Below are positions 4,180 through 12,121 of a stretch of DNA of 15,303 bases, piece by piece (the stretch's first letter is position 1; each line of letters begins with the position of its first letter). The position numbers and the translations under genes were made by a program. Source of the DNA: a bacterium (GTDB lineage: Bacteria > CSSED10-310 > JAJRTK01); assembly GCA_024278345.1 (NCBI GenBank), contig JAJRTK010000367.1, forward strand, positions 1-15,303. Direction: 5' to 3'. The notes beneath the pieces were generated by a model. The model was not told where the DNA came from. It did no database searches and saw only the letters and a list, made by a program, of their open reading frames with translations.

Positions 4180-5379
4180 CTACTCGCCTCCTTGCAGGCC
4201 AGATCTTCCCACGCGGACTGAGCGCGGCTTACCGAAAATCCCCCGAATAGACTCCAGGTGAGCCGAAAGGCGCCTGGCAATTTCCGCCGGGTGCGGATCG
4301 GACTCCTCCACATAGAGGTCGTGCTCTCGAAGCGGGGCATATTGGACCGGATTGGTCGATGTGAAGATCCCCACCGTGGGCACGGCCGCCGCCGAGGCCA
4401 AGTGCAGGGGGCCGGTATCGGCCGAAATGAAAAGATCCAGGTTGGCCAATAGACCCGCCAGGCGCCGTGGATGGGGGTTTCGATACCAGATGGGGCAGAG
4501 TTCTTGGCCCATGGAATGGCCAGGTGGTAGAATTTGAATGGGGAGAGCCCCGGGAACGGCGATTTGGAGCTGCCGGAGAAACTCCAGCCACCATTTTGCT
4601 GGAAGGCGTTTCCGGCCCGCGGCCTCCGCAAAGAATCCGATTCTCGGGCAATTCGGATGGGAAGGTGTGATGCTCTGGAGCTCCTTGGCACCAAGGCTTT
4701 TGGATTCTTTTGACAGTTCGAGATCCAGTTCACGGAATTGGCCAATGGAATCGCCGGGAAAGACTGCAGTCAAGAGCTGGAGGGGCCGGAGAGATTCGTG
4801 GACCAACCTTTCGGTGGGTTCCGCCGTATGGGTGAGGCGACTCCACTGTCCCGCCCCCGCGAAGCCCAGGCGGAATCGCGCTCTCGATATACGAAGGAGC
4901 AAGCGGTTGCTCGTGGAACAAAGGCAGGGATCGATGGCCAAATCATACCGGTTTCGCCGGAAGTCACCCATGCGCCGCAACAATTGGATAGGGTGCTTGG
5001 CCGGTTTTCCTGGCAATGGAAAGATGTTACGCACGGATTGCATTCCCTGGAACAAGAGGGCATGCGATGGAGCACCCACAACAATGTCGATGGAAGAAGA
5101 GACGCAGGTTCGGGCCAGGGTCCTGATAAGAGGCGTGAGGAGAATCTGGTTTCCCAGGCGCGGATTGGGCCGGCAGATAAGGATTGACCGGATTTCCCGG
5201 GGCGCCAGGAGAGGACCGTGTTGCGGTGGAGCCGGCCTCTTACCGGCGAAGCGGTTCAGGAGGCGCCGGGCCCCGCGGTGGAGATGGATGAATCGAGATC
5301 GTTTCATGGCCTTGGTGGCGAGCTGGACTTTACGGACGCGCCGCCCGCGGTGGAGATGGATGAATCGAGATCGTTTCAT
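4180..5379 (-). CDS. Glycosyltransferase family 9 (ADP-heptose:LPS heptosyltransferase-like)
   Basis: A cytoplasmic or membrane-associated enzyme expected to transfer a heptose-like sugar from a nucleotide donor onto lipopolysaccharide core or a related glycan. The GT9 fold starts near residue 62 (IRSILICRPNPRLGNQILL), matching the usual N-terminal acceptor-side motif. The donor-binding motif is clear at about 317-340: LFISADTGPLHLASA, with Asp321-Thr-Gly and His326. Donor sugar and acceptor cannot be told from sequence. The ATG at 5379 overlaps the ribBA stop as ATGA, implying translational coupling. The N-terminus is odd: MKRSRFIHLHRG occurs at residues 1-12 and again at 25-36, from a 37-bp exact DNA repeat, so an ATG at 5307 is an equally plausible start, giving 375 residues. 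Neither has a good ribosome site. The Arg-rich first 60 residues lie outside the family fold. Confidence 0.85.
   Translation of the reverse strand: MKRSRFIHLHRGRRVRKVQLATKAMKRSRFIHLHRGARRLLNRFAGKRPAPPQHGPLLAPREIRSILICRPNPRLGNQILLTPLIRTLARTCVSSSIDIVVGAPSHALLFQGMQSVRNIFPLPGKPAKHPIQLLRRMGDFRRNRYDLAIDPCLCSTSNRLLLRISRARFRLGFAGAGQWSRLTHTAEPTERLVHESLRPLQLLTAVFPGDSIGQFRELDLELSKESKSLGAKELQSITPSHPNCPRIGFFAEAAGRKRLPAKWWLEFLRQLQIAVPGALPIQILPPGHSMGQELCPIWYRNPHPRRLAGLLANLDLFISADTGPLHLASAAAVPTVGIFTSTNPVQYAPLREHDLYVEESDPHPAEIARRLSAHLESIRGIFGKPRSVRVGRSGLQGGE
5272..5308. repeat. 37-bp direct repeat, copy A (inside the GT9 gene)
   Basis: This 37-base stretch is identical to 5344-5380. It begins CCCGCGGTGGAGATGG and ends ATCGTTTCATG. 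The offset is 72 bases, so the two copies are in the same reading frame. Identity stops sharply on both sides, and the 35-base spacer is not repeated outside the pair. It encodes, on the minus strand, the second MKRSRFIHLHRG of the GT9 protein. Confidence 0.95.
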
Positions 5380-5380
5380 G
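5344..5380. repeat. 37-bp direct repeat, copy B (at the ribBA/GT9 junction)
   Basis: This is the second exact copy of the 37-base repeat. It contains the ATGA where the ribBA stop and the first possible GT9 start overlap. The inner part (GAATCGA, GA, TCGTTTC) is an imperfect palindrome. Confidence 0.95.
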
Positions 5381-6521
5381 AGGGGGCCGGAGGCTCCGAG
5401 ATGTCGATGGATACCGTCTCCACGATCTCAAGGCCATGCCCCTCGATCCCCACAAGCCGCCTTGGATGATTGGTCATGAGGCGTATTTTTCCCAGCCCCA
5501 GGGAGCGGAGAATCTGGGCTCCGAGCCCGTATTCCCGGAAACTCATGCGGTTTTTTTGATGGTTCGCCGCCGGGTTTTCAGGTGTGACCTCCGGGTGGTT
5601 GTATTGGGAAATAAGGTCGGTGAGAGTGGCTCTTTCATGAGCCATATAGACGAAGATGCCCGCGCCGGCCTCTCGGATCATGCGGAGCGCGGCCCGCAAC
5701 TCCCGCCCCGGCCGGCTCTCGAGGATGCCGAAGACGTCGCCCGGCCGGCAAGGGGTCTGAACCCGGACCAAGGTTGCCCGCTCCGGATCGACGTCACCCA
5801 ACAACAGGGCCAGATGCTCACTGCCGTCGATGATGCTTTTTAGGACCCTTGCCTCGAATTCTCCGTAATCCCGCGTCCGAACCATAGCGGCAACCGTCTG
5901 GACCACCAAAGATTCATTTTGGAGCCGAAAATCGATGAGCTCCGCGATGGTGACGATTCTCAGGCCATGCTTCTTGGAAAAACGCTCGAGCTCCGACCGG
6001 CGGGCCATGGTTCCATCATCGTTCATGATCTCGCAGATCACGGCGGCGGGCTCCAGATCAGCCAGGCGGGCAAGATCCACCGAACCTTCGGTCTGTCCTG
6101 TCCGAACCAAGACTCCTCCCTCCATGGCGCGGAGCGGAAAAACATGGCCCGGCCTTACCAGATTTTGCGGTCTGGCGCTAGGTGCCACGGCCGCAAGAAT
6201 CGTGTGGGCACGGCCCTTGGCGGTCTGGCCTGGCAGCAACCCATCCGCCGCATCAATACTCACCGTAAAGGCCGTATTGTATTGGCTGGTATTTTTTCTG
6301 ACCATCATGGGGAGATCGAGCTGGCGGAGCCTGGCGTCGGTCATGGGAAGACAGATCAGGCCGCGGGCCTCCGTGGCCATGAAGTTGATGGCCTCTGGAG
6401 TGACGAGCTCCGCTGCCATGCAGAGATCTCCTTCGTTTTCCCGATCTTCGTCATCCACAAGGATCAGGATTTCGCCTCGCTGAATCTCTTTTATCGCTTC
6501 GCGAACGTTTTGGAGGGGCAC
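5376..6521 (-). CDS. ribBA: RibBA-type protein: DHBP synthase with a degenerate GTP cyclohydrolase II domain
   Basis: A riboflavin-synthesis protein of 381 residues. The N-terminal half (about 1-205) is 3,4-dihydroxy-2-butanone 4-phosphate synthase, which makes the four-carbon unit from ribulose 5-phosphate; LVDDEDRENEGD (21-32), RPGHVFPLRA (123-132) and VICEIMNDDGTMAR (161-174) are the family motifs. At the GHTEA motif, where E. coli has metal-ligand His153, this protein has GQTEG (Gln143). The C-terminal half aligns with GTP cyclohydrolase II (TPCRPGDVFG, YGLGAQILRSLGL, LMTNHPRR), but the Cys-x-Cys zinc ligands are Ser269 and Pro271, and the RQEGR catalytic loop reads AHERA. GTP cyclohydrolase activity is therefore unlikely, and a separate RibA should exist elsewhere. 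The GTG start at 6521 is chosen for its strong ribosome site; the frame stays open upstream without family similarity. It is followed by, and overlaps, the GT9 gene. Confidence 0.88.
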   Translation of the reverse strand: MPLQNVREAIKEIQRGEILILVDDEDRENEGDLCMAAELVTPEAINFMATEARGLICLPMTDARLRQLDLPMMVRKNTSQYNTAFTVSIDAADGLLPGQTAKGRAHTILAAVAPSARPQNLVRPGHVFPLRAMEGGVLVRTGQTEGSVDLARLADLEPAAVICEIMNDDGTMARRSELERFSKKHGLRIVTIAELIDFRLQNESLVVQTVAAMVRTRDYGEFEARVLKSIIDGSEHLALLLGDVDPERATLVRVQTPCRPGDVFGILESRPGRELRAALRMIREAGAGIFVYMAHERATLTDLISQYNHPEVTPENPAANHQKNRMSFREYGLGAQILRSLGLGKIRLMTNHPRRLVGIEGHGLEIVETVSIDISEPPAPS

Positions 6522-6620
6522 AAGTTTGCCTCCTGGCTTGTTCCAGTGGAATCGCGATGGGGCGGGTTTGCTTCCGCGCAATAGATTTCTGCGGGCGATT
6601 GTGGTCAACCATGGGAAAGA
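6522..6620. promoter_or_regulatory. Divergent intergenic region between ribBA and the GT2 fusion
   Basis: This 99-base gap must hold the start signals of both divergent genes. No clear -35/-10 pair was found on either strand. It is too short for the conserved FMN riboswitch often seen before ribB genes, so no such element is called. Confidence 0.4.
6529..6534 (-). promoter_or_regulatory. Ribosome binding site deciding the ribBA start
   Basis: A perfect AGGAGG on the minus strand, seven bases before the GTG at 6521. It settles the GTG start in a frame that stays open for nearly 2 kb further upstream. Confidence 0.8.
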
Positions 6621-8072
6621 ATGCAAACTGTCACCAAGGAGAATCCATTGAGCTTGAAGCTCAGCGTCGTCATTCCAGTTTACAATGAGCGGTTCCTGAT
6701 TCGGGAGCTGATCGGACGGGTACTGGCTGCGCAGCCTCCACAAGTGGATGAACTGGAGATTATCGCTGTCGATGATGGCAGTCGCGACGGAACGCGGGAA
6801 ATCTTGCGAGAACTTGCGGCAAGCTATCCTTCGAAGATCCAACTCGTGGAGCACGATAAAAACCAGGGAAAAGGCGCCGCGATTCGGACGGGAATCGCAA
6901 AGTCCACCGGCGACCTCATCATTTTTCAGGATGCCGACCTCGAATACGACCCCAGAGACTATGCTAGATTGGTGGTGCCTTTTCTCCAAGATGGAGCCGA
7001 CGTCGTGTACGGTTCGAGATTCCTTCCCGGCGAACGGAGACGGGTTCTCTACTTCCGGCACACGCTGGGAAACCGTTTTCTTACAGCGCTCAGCAACTGG
7101 TTCACCGACTTGAACCTCACGGACATGGAGACCTGCTACAAGATGTTCCGGGCTCCGCTTCTCAAGTCGATCCCCATTCGTTCCGACAGCTTCGCCATGG
7201 AGCCCGAGATCACAGCCAAAATTGCCAAACGGGGATTTCGGATCTTCGAGGTGCCCATCAACTATCTGGGACGAACCTACGCCGAAGGGAAGAAGATCGG
7301 GTTCAAAGACGGGTTCTGGGCGCTGGGAACGATCTTCAAATACTGGATCTTGGATGATGTCTACCAGAAGGACGAATATGGCTCCCACATTCTGGTCAAC
7401 TTGGAGCGCGTTCGAAGGTTCAACCAGTGGATGGCCGACTCCATCGCTCCCCACGTGGGGGCAAGAGTCCTTGAGATCGGCGCTGGCATCGGCAATATCA
7501 CGAACTGGCTCCTTCCCAGGGACCGTTATGTTGCTAGCGATATCAATCCTCACTACGTCCACTACTTGAAAAATCTGGCCACGGGAAAACCCTATCTGGA
7601 TTCTGCACGGCTTGACGTCCAGGACCCCGCGGCTTTTGTCCCCTGGTCGAAGCAGTTCGACACGGTGATCTGTCTCAATGTCCTGGAGCACGTCCAGGAC
7701 CCCGTCCAGGCGATGCGCAATATGGCCTCGGCCTTGGAGCCCGGTGGGCAGATCATCCTCTATGTGCCTCAGGGCCAACGCCTCTACTGCTCGTTGGATG
7801 AGGTTCTCGGCCACCGTTGCCGCTACGAAGAAGACGGGCTGGTCCGTGAAATCGAGGCGGCGGGCCTGGTGCTCCATCAGATGGATCAATTCAACCGATT
7901 TGCACTCCCAGGCTGGTGGTTCAATGGAAAAGTCCTCAAAAAAAAGAGTTTCAGTCGGATACAGCTCAAGCTTGTGAACTTCCTGGTGCCACTGCTCCGG
8001 AGGATCGACCGCTGGCTTCCCTGGCGGGCGCTGGGACTTATCGCTGTAGCTAGAAAGCCCGGTGGCGAGTAA
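6621..8072 (+). CDS. Fusion of a family 2 glycosyltransferase and a class I SAM methyltransferase
   Basis: A 483-residue two-domain enzyme. Residues about 13-240 are a GT2 domain of the dolichyl-phosphate mannosyltransferase type: SVVIPVYNE (15-23), DDGS (51-54), and the metal/sugar motif DAD (104-106). Residues about 255-480 are a Rossmann methyltransferase with motif I VLEIGAGIGN (283-292), an acidic residue ending strand 2 (SDIN) and LNVLEHV (352-358), as in UbiG-like enzymes. No membrane segments are obvious, so it is probably cytosolic or peripheral. Such fusions are known in bacterial genomes; the likely role is building and methylating a lipid-linked or surface glycan, but substrates are inferred only. 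The ATG at 6621 has a weak upstream purine run. A TTG at codon 10 (6648) has AAGGAG six bases upstream and may be the true start. It is divergent from ribBA across 99 bases. Confidence 0.9.
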   Translation: MQTVTKENPLSLKLSVVIPVYNERFLIRELIGRVLAAQPPQVDELEIIAVDDGSRDGTREILRELAASYPSKIQLVEHDKNQGKGAAIRTGIAKSTGDLIIFQDADLEYDPRDYARLVVPFLQDGADVVYGSRFLPGERRRVLYFRHTLGNRFLTALSNWFTDLNLTDMETCYKMFRAPLLKSIPIRSDSFAMEPEITAKIAKRGFRIFEVPINYLGRTYAEGKKIGFKDGFWALGTIFKYWILDDVYQKDEYGSHILVNLERVRRFNQWMADSIAPHVGARVLEIGAGIGNITNWLLPRDRYVASDINPHYVHYLKNLATGKPYLDSARLDVQDPAAFVPWSKQFDTVICLNVLEHVQDPVQAMRNMASALEPGGQIILYVPQGQRLYCSLDEVLGHRCRYEEDGLVREIEAAGLVLHQMDQFNRFALPGWWFNGKVLKKKSFSRIQLKLVNFLVPLLRRIDRWLPWRALGLIAVARKPGGE

Positions 8073-10709: not shown

Positions 10710-11909
10710 CTAGGAAGGTTGGTACTCCTTCCAGGTCTGTTCGAGATCTTCGCGAGCCATGGTTTCCAGAAGATAGTCACAGAATTCTCTTCCAGTGGAG
10801 CCAGTGTTGCGGCCGGTCATCACCAGTTTTTTCTCGTACTGGCCGCAGACGTCCAGAGCCATTTCCAGCTTCTTGGCGCGTTTTTTGAAACCCAGGTGCT
10901 CCAGCATCATGGAGGCTGCGCGGATCATGGAGCTGGGATCCGCGTATTGTGCGCGGCCTTCCTTGACCATTCTGGGAGCCGAGCCATGGATCGCCTCGAA
11001 CATGGAGTAACGCTTCCCAAGGTTGGCTGAGCCGGCTGTCCCAACGCCGCCCTGGAATTCCGCGGCTTCGTCGGTGAGAATGTCGCCGTAGAGGTTGGGG
11101 AGGACCATCACCTGGAACTGGGTTCTGCGCTTGGCGTCCACCAGCTTGGCGGTCATTATATCGATATACCAGTCGTCACATTCGATCCCGGGATATTCCT
11201 TGGCAATCTTGTAGCCGAGCTTGAGGAACTTACCATCCGTGGTCTTGATGACGTTGGCCTTGGTAACCAGAGTGACGCGAGTTCTGCCCGCTCGCTTGGC
11301 GTATTCGAAGGCGGCGCGGATGATCCGCTCTGTTCCCTGCGACGTCGCCACAGTGAAGTCAATGGCCAGATCATCGGTGATGTCGATACCCTGGGAACCC
11401 ATGGCATAGGCGCCTTCAGTGTTTTCGCGGAAGAAGCGCCAGTCGATGCCCTGCCCGGGTACGCGGACCGGCCGGACGTTGGCGAAGAGATCGAGCTCTT
11501 TTCGGAGAGCCACGTTGGCCGACTCGATGTTGGGCCAGGGATCGCCCTTCCTGGGGGTCGTGGTGGGACCTTTAAGGGTGACGTGAAAGGTCTTGATTTC
11601 GTCGAGAACCTGGGCGGGGATTGCCGCATTCTCTTCGGCGCGACGCTCGATGGTGAGGCCTTCGATGTTCGCCAGCTCAACCTTGCCGGAATCAACTTCG
11701 GGCTGCAAAAGGCGCTTCAAGACACGCTCCGCTTCAATTGCGATGGCGGGACCGATACCGTCCCCTCCCAGAATGCCGATTCGGATGGTCTCCAGAGTCG
11801 AAAAGTCGATCCAGTCCTGTTCTTTCCTCATACGCTCCACGCGCCCGAGCTGTTGCTGGAGGAGGGCGCCGAATCGTTCCTTGGCTGACGCGATTGCTTC
11901 TTGGTTCAT
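10710..11909 (-). CDS. icd: Isocitrate dehydrogenase (isocitrate/isopropylmalate dehydrogenase family)
   Basis: A 399-residue cytosolic enzyme of the beta-decarboxylating dehydrogenase family, expected to turn isocitrate into 2-oxoglutarate in the citrate cycle. Family motifs are intact: GGDGIGPAI (48-56), GPTTTPRKG (114-122), NVALRKELDLFANVRPV (132-148), ENTEGAYA (162-169), TKANVIKTTDGKF (216-228), NLYGDILTDEAAE (272-284) and HGSAP (308-312). Ser130 and Asn132 before the Arg match the isocitrate-binding Ser-x-Asn pattern, and TKANVIK also favours isocitrate over isopropylmalate. After HGSAP the residues are Arg313-Met314, where the E. coli NADP enzyme has Lys-Tyr and NAD enzymes usually Asp, so cofactor choice is open. 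The ATG has GGGAG six bases upstream. The gene is single, with its own terminator, and divergent from the Omp85 gene. Confidence 0.85.
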   Translation of the reverse strand: MNQEAIASAKERFGALLQQQLGRVERMRKEQDWIDFSTLETIRIGILGGDGIGPAIAIEAERVLKRLLQPEVDSGKVELANIEGLTIERRAEENAAIPAQVLDEIKTFHVTLKGPTTTPRKGDPWPNIESANVALRKELDLFANVRPVRVPGQGIDWRFFRENTEGAYAMGSQGIDITDDLAIDFTVATSQGTERIIRAAFEYAKRAGRTRVTLVTKANVIKTTDGKFLKLGYKIAKEYPGIECDDWYIDIMTAKLVDAKRRTQFQVMVLPNLYGDILTDEAAEFQGGVGTAGSANLGKRYSMFEAIHGSAPRMVKEGRAQYADPSSMIRAASMMLEHLGFKKRAKKLEMALDVCGQYEKKLVMTGRNTGSTGREFCDYLLETMAREDLEQTWKEYQPS

Positions 11910-11942
11910 GAGATTCTCCCATAGGTTCTCCGGTGGCCGGAG

Positions 11943-11972
11943 ATTCGTAATTGAAACCGCCCGACTGTGGCG
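11943..11972. repeat. Imperfect 30-bp direct repeat, copy 1
   Basis: The core TTGAAACCGCCCG at 11951-11963 is identical to copy 2 at 12025-12037, and the following bases end in GTGGCG in both. Over 30 bases, 24 match. Confidence 0.75.
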
Positions 11973-12022
11973 CAGCTTTCGGGAAAGGCTGAAATGAACC
12001 CGGGCTGCGCCCGCGGGTTCAT
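11973..12022. repeat. Two adjacent hairpin-forming inverted repeats
   Basis: The first is CAGCTTTC with GAAAGGCTG (11973-11991; one bulged base, two-base loop). The second, stronger one pairs ATGAACCC (11994-12001) with GGGTTCAT (12015-12022), with an inner GGC/GCC-rich stem and a small bulge. Neither is followed by a T-run on either strand. They sit between the two direct repeats in the gap dividing the dehydrogenase and Omp85 genes. Confidence 0.65.
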
Positions 12023-12046
12023 GGTTGAAACCGCCCGCCGGTGGCG
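12017..12046. repeat. Imperfect 30-bp direct repeat, copy 2
   Basis: It carries the same TTGAAACCGCCCG core as copy 1, 74 bases further on. Its left end overlaps the right arm of the second hairpin. Confidence 0.75.
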
Positions 12047-12121
12047 ATAGGTTGCGGGCTTGGTCTTGGGGCGGACAGAAGGCGGATGTTGCGCCGAAAC
12101 TGATGTCGTGTGGGGAAACTA

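Follow-up and report, generated by a model that had tools for sequence, protein, structure and literature searches.

Two RibBA paralogues with reciprocal losses in one bacterial genome and a possible DHBP synthase site shared between them

The window RibBA and its GTP cyclohydrolase II-like half

What does a RibBA protein do whose GTP cyclohydrolase II (GCHII) half appears to have lost its active site, and which protein of the same genome would then open GTP? The question is raised by a gene in the window, by which we mean the whole stretch of 15,303 nucleotides analyzed here. The gene (positions 5376 to 6521, minus strand) encodes a RibBA paralogue of 381 amino acids with Pfam matches PF00926 and PF00925, in an open frame that runs from a GTG start, preceded by a Shine-Dalgarno-like AGGAGG (6529 to 6534, minus strand) 7 nucleotides 5′ of it, to a TGA stop. 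It consists of a RibB (DHBP synthase) half, residues 1 to 204 (5910 to 6521, minus strand), and a GCHII-like half, residues 205 to 381 (about 5379 to 5909, minus strand); the span of 5376 to 6206 given for the latter in the original prediction includes the end of the RibB half.

The ATG of the downstream glycosyltransferase family 9 gene (4180 to 5379, minus strand) overlaps the stop codon of ribBA (ATGA), so that the two genes probably form one transcript. The start region of the glycosyltransferase gene is present twice, as a perfect 37-nucleotide direct repeat (5272 to 5308 and 5344 to 5380, 72 nucleotides apart) with two MKRSRFIHLHRG starts, and one of the repeat copies overlaps the ribBA stop codon. 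On the other side, a gene fusing glycosyltransferase family 2 and SAM methyltransferase parts (6621 to 8072) diverges from ribBA across a gap of about 100 nucleotides. No consensus promoter was found in the intergenic stretch of the window, and no FMN riboswitch in the window or beside the second ribBA copy described below. The contig is compositionally at home, as the window and the rest of its genome agree in tetranucleotide use; a foreign contig in the bin was rejected at a distance of 0.0096 to the nearest own contig versus 0.027 to the nearest foreign one.

Both halves were compared with 132 intact RibBA proteins, counting as near-invariant the alignment columns conserved in at least 97% of them (54 in the GCHII half and 52 in the RibB half). 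The window protein retains 47 of these positions in its RibB half and only 22 in its GCHII-like half, where 32 are lost; three relatives from the same phylum and a further genome, G451, retain 53 to 54 in GCHII and 51 to 52 in RibB. Read from the GTG at 6521, the residue calls made originally are correct: in the former zinc site (5709 to 5750, minus strand), C258 is retained and Cys65 and Cys67 are replaced by S269 and P271, which leaves the zinc motif C-x10-C-x-C incomplete; the RQEGR loop is replaced by MAHERA (5628 to 5645, minus strand; AHERA at residues 294 to 298), two residues shorter; and the motifs GDVFG, YGLGAQIL, and LMTNHPRR remain. The accompanying claim that the zinc and catalytic residues are lost holds for two of the three zinc cysteines, Asp126, Lys154, and Gln91/Gly93/Arg94, but not for the equivalents of E. 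coli Tyr105 and Arg128, which are kept. This damage arose by substitution and not by frameshift, since the other two frames of the damaged stretches contain no canonical motif. Against TIGR00505 (GCHII), the protein scores 83.4 bits, below the curated cut-off of 205.85, and its AlphaFold model has a mean pLDDT of 88, with low confidence for residues 311 to 330 behind the former RQEGR loop. Judged from these residues, the GCHII half is almost certainly dead. As the window copy would be unable to bind zinc in the way GCHII does, the opening of GTP would have to fall to the other RibBA copy.

That RibBA proteins with a noncatalytic RibA-like half occur in other bacteria, as had been pointed out, is confirmed by RibBX, a real precedent: the top structural match of the window protein is 6mnz, the RibBX of Acinetobacter baumannii. 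RibBX proteins (PRK14019/NF010626; Shewanella, Aeromonas, Acinetobacter, and 6mnz) resemble the window protein in that RibB is joined to a RibA-like half lacking the zinc cysteines and the catalytic loop, and in both cases GCHII comes from another gene; for Shewanella and Aeromonas, the dead RibA-like half is described in PMC10012899. Proteobacterial RibBX proteins keep 13 to 18 of the 54 near-invariant positions, compared with the 22 of the window protein. However, RibBX proteins keep loop 4 of RibB, the lid, which the window protein has lost, and whereas their partner is a stand-alone RibA, the only intact GCHII here is fused to a seemingly dead RibB half on contig C107, the third homologue of the genome being URC1-like. 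The window protein also scores below the curated cut-offs of both families, with 419.8 bits for RibBX (NF010626; cut-off, 513) and 399.6 bits for bifunctional RibBA (PRK09311/NF006803; cut-off, 569).

A second RibBA and the loops of the RibB site

The assembly of this uncultured bacterium (6.06 Mb in 550 contigs, 87.9% complete) contains three matches to PF00925 and two to PF00926. A second full-length RibBA is encoded on contig C107, followed by ribH and nusB, and it is the only one of the two copies that sits in a rib operon. Its GCHII half (11606 to 12100), with C-x10-C-x-C and RQEGRGIGL intact and all 54 near-invariant positions kept, matches the Cys-x8-10-Cys-x-Cys pattern by which a RibA was to be sought, and it very probably supplies GCHII. 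The functional RibA predicted to exist elsewhere in the genome is thus present in intact-looking form, but it does not stand alone: the RibB half to which it is fused keeps 38 of 52 near-invariant positions, and among the 14 that are lost are Glu174 and the greater part of the DEDRENE stretch. By their residues, the two copies are therefore related reciprocally, each damaged where the other is whole. The third GCHII homologue was rejected as the missing RibA, as it matches PRK07198, is URC1-like, and belongs to a cluster of the uracil-catabolism type. In this cluster (contig C462; L158, 2218 to 5909), it stands in a row with a DUF1688 protein, presumably URC4-like, and a uracil phosphoribosyltransferase. 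No RibB besides the window and C107 copies was found in the assembled 87.9% of the genome. RibD is present, and riboflavin synthase was not found in this assembly; contig C107 breaks off immediately 5′ of ribBA, and the missing ribE may lie beyond that end. Among plasmid records, nothing closely related to the C107 copy turned up, every match being under 60%.

While the original prediction was right about the GCHII half, it overlooked a localized damage in the RibB half of the window protein. This half scores 240.7 bits against TIGR00506 (DHBP synthase), above the curated cut-off of 177.45; loop 1, DDEDRENEGD (6426 to 6455, minus strand), supplied to the chain's own site, and loop 3, EIMNDDGTMAR (6000 to 6032, minus strand), are intact, and so is the loop 5 region NLVRPGHVF (6138 to 6164, minus strand) except for the adjacent D130N. 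Loop 4 (6210 to 6242, minus strand), the lid for the partner's site, is destroyed (GVTTGISAADR to GLLPGQTAKGR), the change of VTTGISAAD to LLPGQTAKG amounting to T107P, I109Q, S110T, and D113G in E. coli numbering. The five near-invariant positions lost from this half include T107P, I109Q, and S110T, all in this one loop, and the original residues are found in 158 of 159 homologues (T107) or in all 159 (I109 and S110). With loops 1 to 3 and 5 kept and loop 4 lost, the window chain does not hold a complete set of DHBP synthase loops. The change of GHTE to GQTE, which removes the metal ligand His153, was considered as further damage and dismissed, Gln being common there in intact RibBA proteins. 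At this E. coli position, GQTE is found in numerous RibBA proteins from Desulfobacterota, Nitrospirota, and other groups (e.g., L006, L098, and the window protein) whose site is otherwise intact, and their metal site may not be that of the textbook.

In the DHBP synthase of V. cholerae, the active site combines a monomer's own loops 1 (34 to 41), 2 (82 to 98), and 3 (175 to 185) with loops 4 (103′ to 111′) and 5 (132′ to 138′) of the other monomer, E. coli numbers being one lower; loop 4 has a strictly conserved Thr108 and acts as a lid for Mg2+ entry (PMC5228156). We counted loops 1 to 3 as cis and loops 4 and 5 as trans, using columns at least 90% conserved among 159 homologues and placing Asp113 (Asp114 in PMC5228156) with loop 4, as that paper ties the residue to Thr108. 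The expectation that a mixed dimer would contain one whole site, should loop 4 and the acidic loop stem from different subunits, had been written down before the ownership of the loops by chain was looked up. The window RibB half has lost none of 17 cis and five of nine trans positions, and the C107 half 12 of 17 cis and one of nine trans positions, the latter by a mild T106S; at an 80% threshold, the window half still shows no loss among 22 cis positions. C107 additionally lacks G152 and T154, both in the 150-154 strand, a stretch that the V. cholerae list assigns to none of loops 1 to 5. Fisher's P for reciprocity is 0.0007 at 90%, 0.0035 at 97%, and 0.0004 at 80% conservation, values that are optimistic, since columns of the same loop do not count as independent. 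As read from these alignments, the split into cis and trans losses between the two RibB halves is nearly complete.

Relatives, origin, and parallel pairs

Six of the seven other genomes of the same phylum that were examined have one RibBA each, intact at the checked active-site positions; the seventh, which is 60% complete, gave no RibBA match. In single-half trees, the end branches of the window copy measure about 1.0 for RibB and 4.2 for RibA, and those of the C107 copy 2.0 to 2.2 for RibB and 0.8 for RibA, against medians of about 0.5: opposite halves of the two copies evolve fast. The tree of the RibB halves is compatible with both duplication and transfer as the source of the window copy. 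It is conceivable, though in our view doubtful, that the window copy was acquired when already RibBX-like and that the resident operon RibBA then lost its RibB half, a proposal that concerns origin only and fits any of the mechanisms discussed below. Its RibB half clusters with sequences from Desulfobacterota and Pseudomonadota (25-row set; SH-aLRT, 97), C107 alone occupies the rib operon, and a tree placing the window copy with proteobacterial RibBX is not worse (p-AU, 0.62); yet sister placement of the two copies is not rejected either (p-AU, 0.41), the RibBX model score of 420 bits stays under the cut-off of 513, and the tetranucleotide use of the window matches its own genome.

Two RibBA-length matches at an E value of 1e-100 occur in only three of 386 diverse genomes, namely the source genome and G104 and G370, congeneric species from another phylum. 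The latter two carry a reciprocally damaged RibBA pair (L153-L156): the first copy combines a perfect RibB half (52/52) with a damaged GCHII half (RQESQ, K154R, and a shortened region), and the second a perfect GCHII half (54/54) with a damaged RibB half (DGEPENEGD, T154P, and E174G). The losses in this RibB half fall in cis loops and none in loops 4 and 5, a split that alone is not significant (P of 0.04 to 0.5). Between the two species, dN/dS is 0.009 for the active RibB and 0.031 for the damaged RibA half of the first copy, and 0.105 for the damaged RibB and 0.013 for the active RibA half of the second. The degenerate halves are thus under strong purifying selection, weaker than that on the active halves. 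Like the window and C107 proteins, this pair is reciprocal, but its damage is younger and one copy has a complete RibB half; by its residues, it is an independent, milder case, in which a heterodimer is not needed because the RibB-intact copy keeps its lid. Elsewhere, RibBA proteins with a dead RibA half, in three Acidobacteriota genomes and Sandaracinus, co-occur with an ordinary stand-alone RibA, as described for RibBX. G451 (isolate LB3_2; L199 and L082) has two RibBA copies with both halves of each intact-looking, possibly an earlier stage of the same process.

A composite site or separate enzymes

We favor, at about even odds on the residues of the two chains, the reading that the window and C107 chains form a heterodimer with a composite RibB site. 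We hold slightly less firmly to its strict form, in which DHBP synthase would be an obligate heterodimer of the two degenerate RibBA proteins, with one working RibB site per dimer and GCHII on one chain only. Neither chain alone would then form a working DHBP synthase; the two would dimerize through their RibB halves, one giving the substrate- and metal-binding loops and the other the lid and catalytic-His loops. Since the site lies between two subunits and the loop losses are opposite, a mixed dimer would have exactly one complete site (window loops 1 to 3 with C107 loops 4 and 5) and one dead site. The RibA half of C107 would provide GCHII in the heterodimer, and the GCHII-like half of the window protein would be retained as a structural or regulatory part. 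Loop reciprocity, the absence of another RibB from the assembled genome, the single intact RibBA of six same-phylum genomes, the long branches of opposite halves, and the G104/G370 parallel, with dN/dS of 0.03 and 0.10 on the damaged halves, argue for the heterodimer, and the location of the two genes on different contigs in different gene neighborhoods and the incomplete assembly, in which a separate ribB may be lacking, argue against it.

Of the rival readings, the simplest lets the window RibB half work alone. In such a plain reciprocal subfunctionalization, the window homodimer would be an active DHBP synthase despite its lid, the C107 homodimer an active GCHII, and the degenerate halves would serve folding only. 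Arabidopsis offers a measured precedent in RIBA2 (DHBPS only) and RIBA3 (GCHII only) (PMC3509567), the RibB-intact copy of G104 and G370 needs no partner, and the window half keeps every cis residue (0/22 lost at 80%) along with Gly108 and the His136 loop. Its replaced residues (Thr107 by Pro, Asp113 by Gly, Ile109 by Gln, and Ser110 by Thr), however, are 96 to 100% conserved, including in all RibBX-type proteins seen, and Thr-to-Ser at the loop 4 site abolishes activity in M. jannaschii, according to work cited in PMC5228156. With the lid loop destroyed, a simple homodimer of the window RibB half is unlikely to be a working DHBP synthase; the restriction of the C107 losses to cis loops would also be left unexplained, and we consider this rival rather unlikely as a whole. 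Less probable still is a DHBP synthase encoded separately in the unassembled 12% of the genome, with the window copy decaying or in another role. The assembly, 87.9% complete, lacks at least the riboflavin synthase gene of the pathway, so that a separate ribB may be missing too, and the window copy is damaged in both halves; but its frame is intact, its ribosome site is strong, its untouched cis loops are unlike random decay, and the six same-phylum genomes in which RibBA was found have it intact, so that no separate ribB would be needed there.

Dead RibA-like halves (RibBX) and reciprocal loss (in plants) are already known. To judge by sequence, the window and C107 pair may be reciprocal in the manner of the Arabidopsis paralogues RIBA2, which lacks GCHII activity, and RIBA3, which lacks DHBPS activity (PMC3509567), but plants also have a fully active RIBA1, and no loss of opposite loops from a single shared RibB site is described for them. 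As a comparison of working only, Trypanosoma AdoMetDC depends on a heterodimer with its prozyme, a catalytically dead paralogue (PMC5201418); that unrelated protein is activated by relief of autoinhibition and not by shared loops of one site. The composite-site pattern looks new. The literature searched, with few subscription papers covered, contained no report of reciprocal RibBA loss in bacteria or of cis/trans loop reciprocity in DHBP synthase, which is weak evidence of novelty.

For annotation, the pair is a warning: all four halves still score above their Pfam cut-offs, although neither chain is predicted to have both activities. Should the two chains indeed work as the proposed heterodimer, they would be a clear natural case of a homodimeric enzyme split into two interdependent chains according to which subunit supplies which loops. 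This would also explain why half-dead RibBA proteins are kept untrimmed, since in this pair the partner's site would still depend on the dead RibB half.
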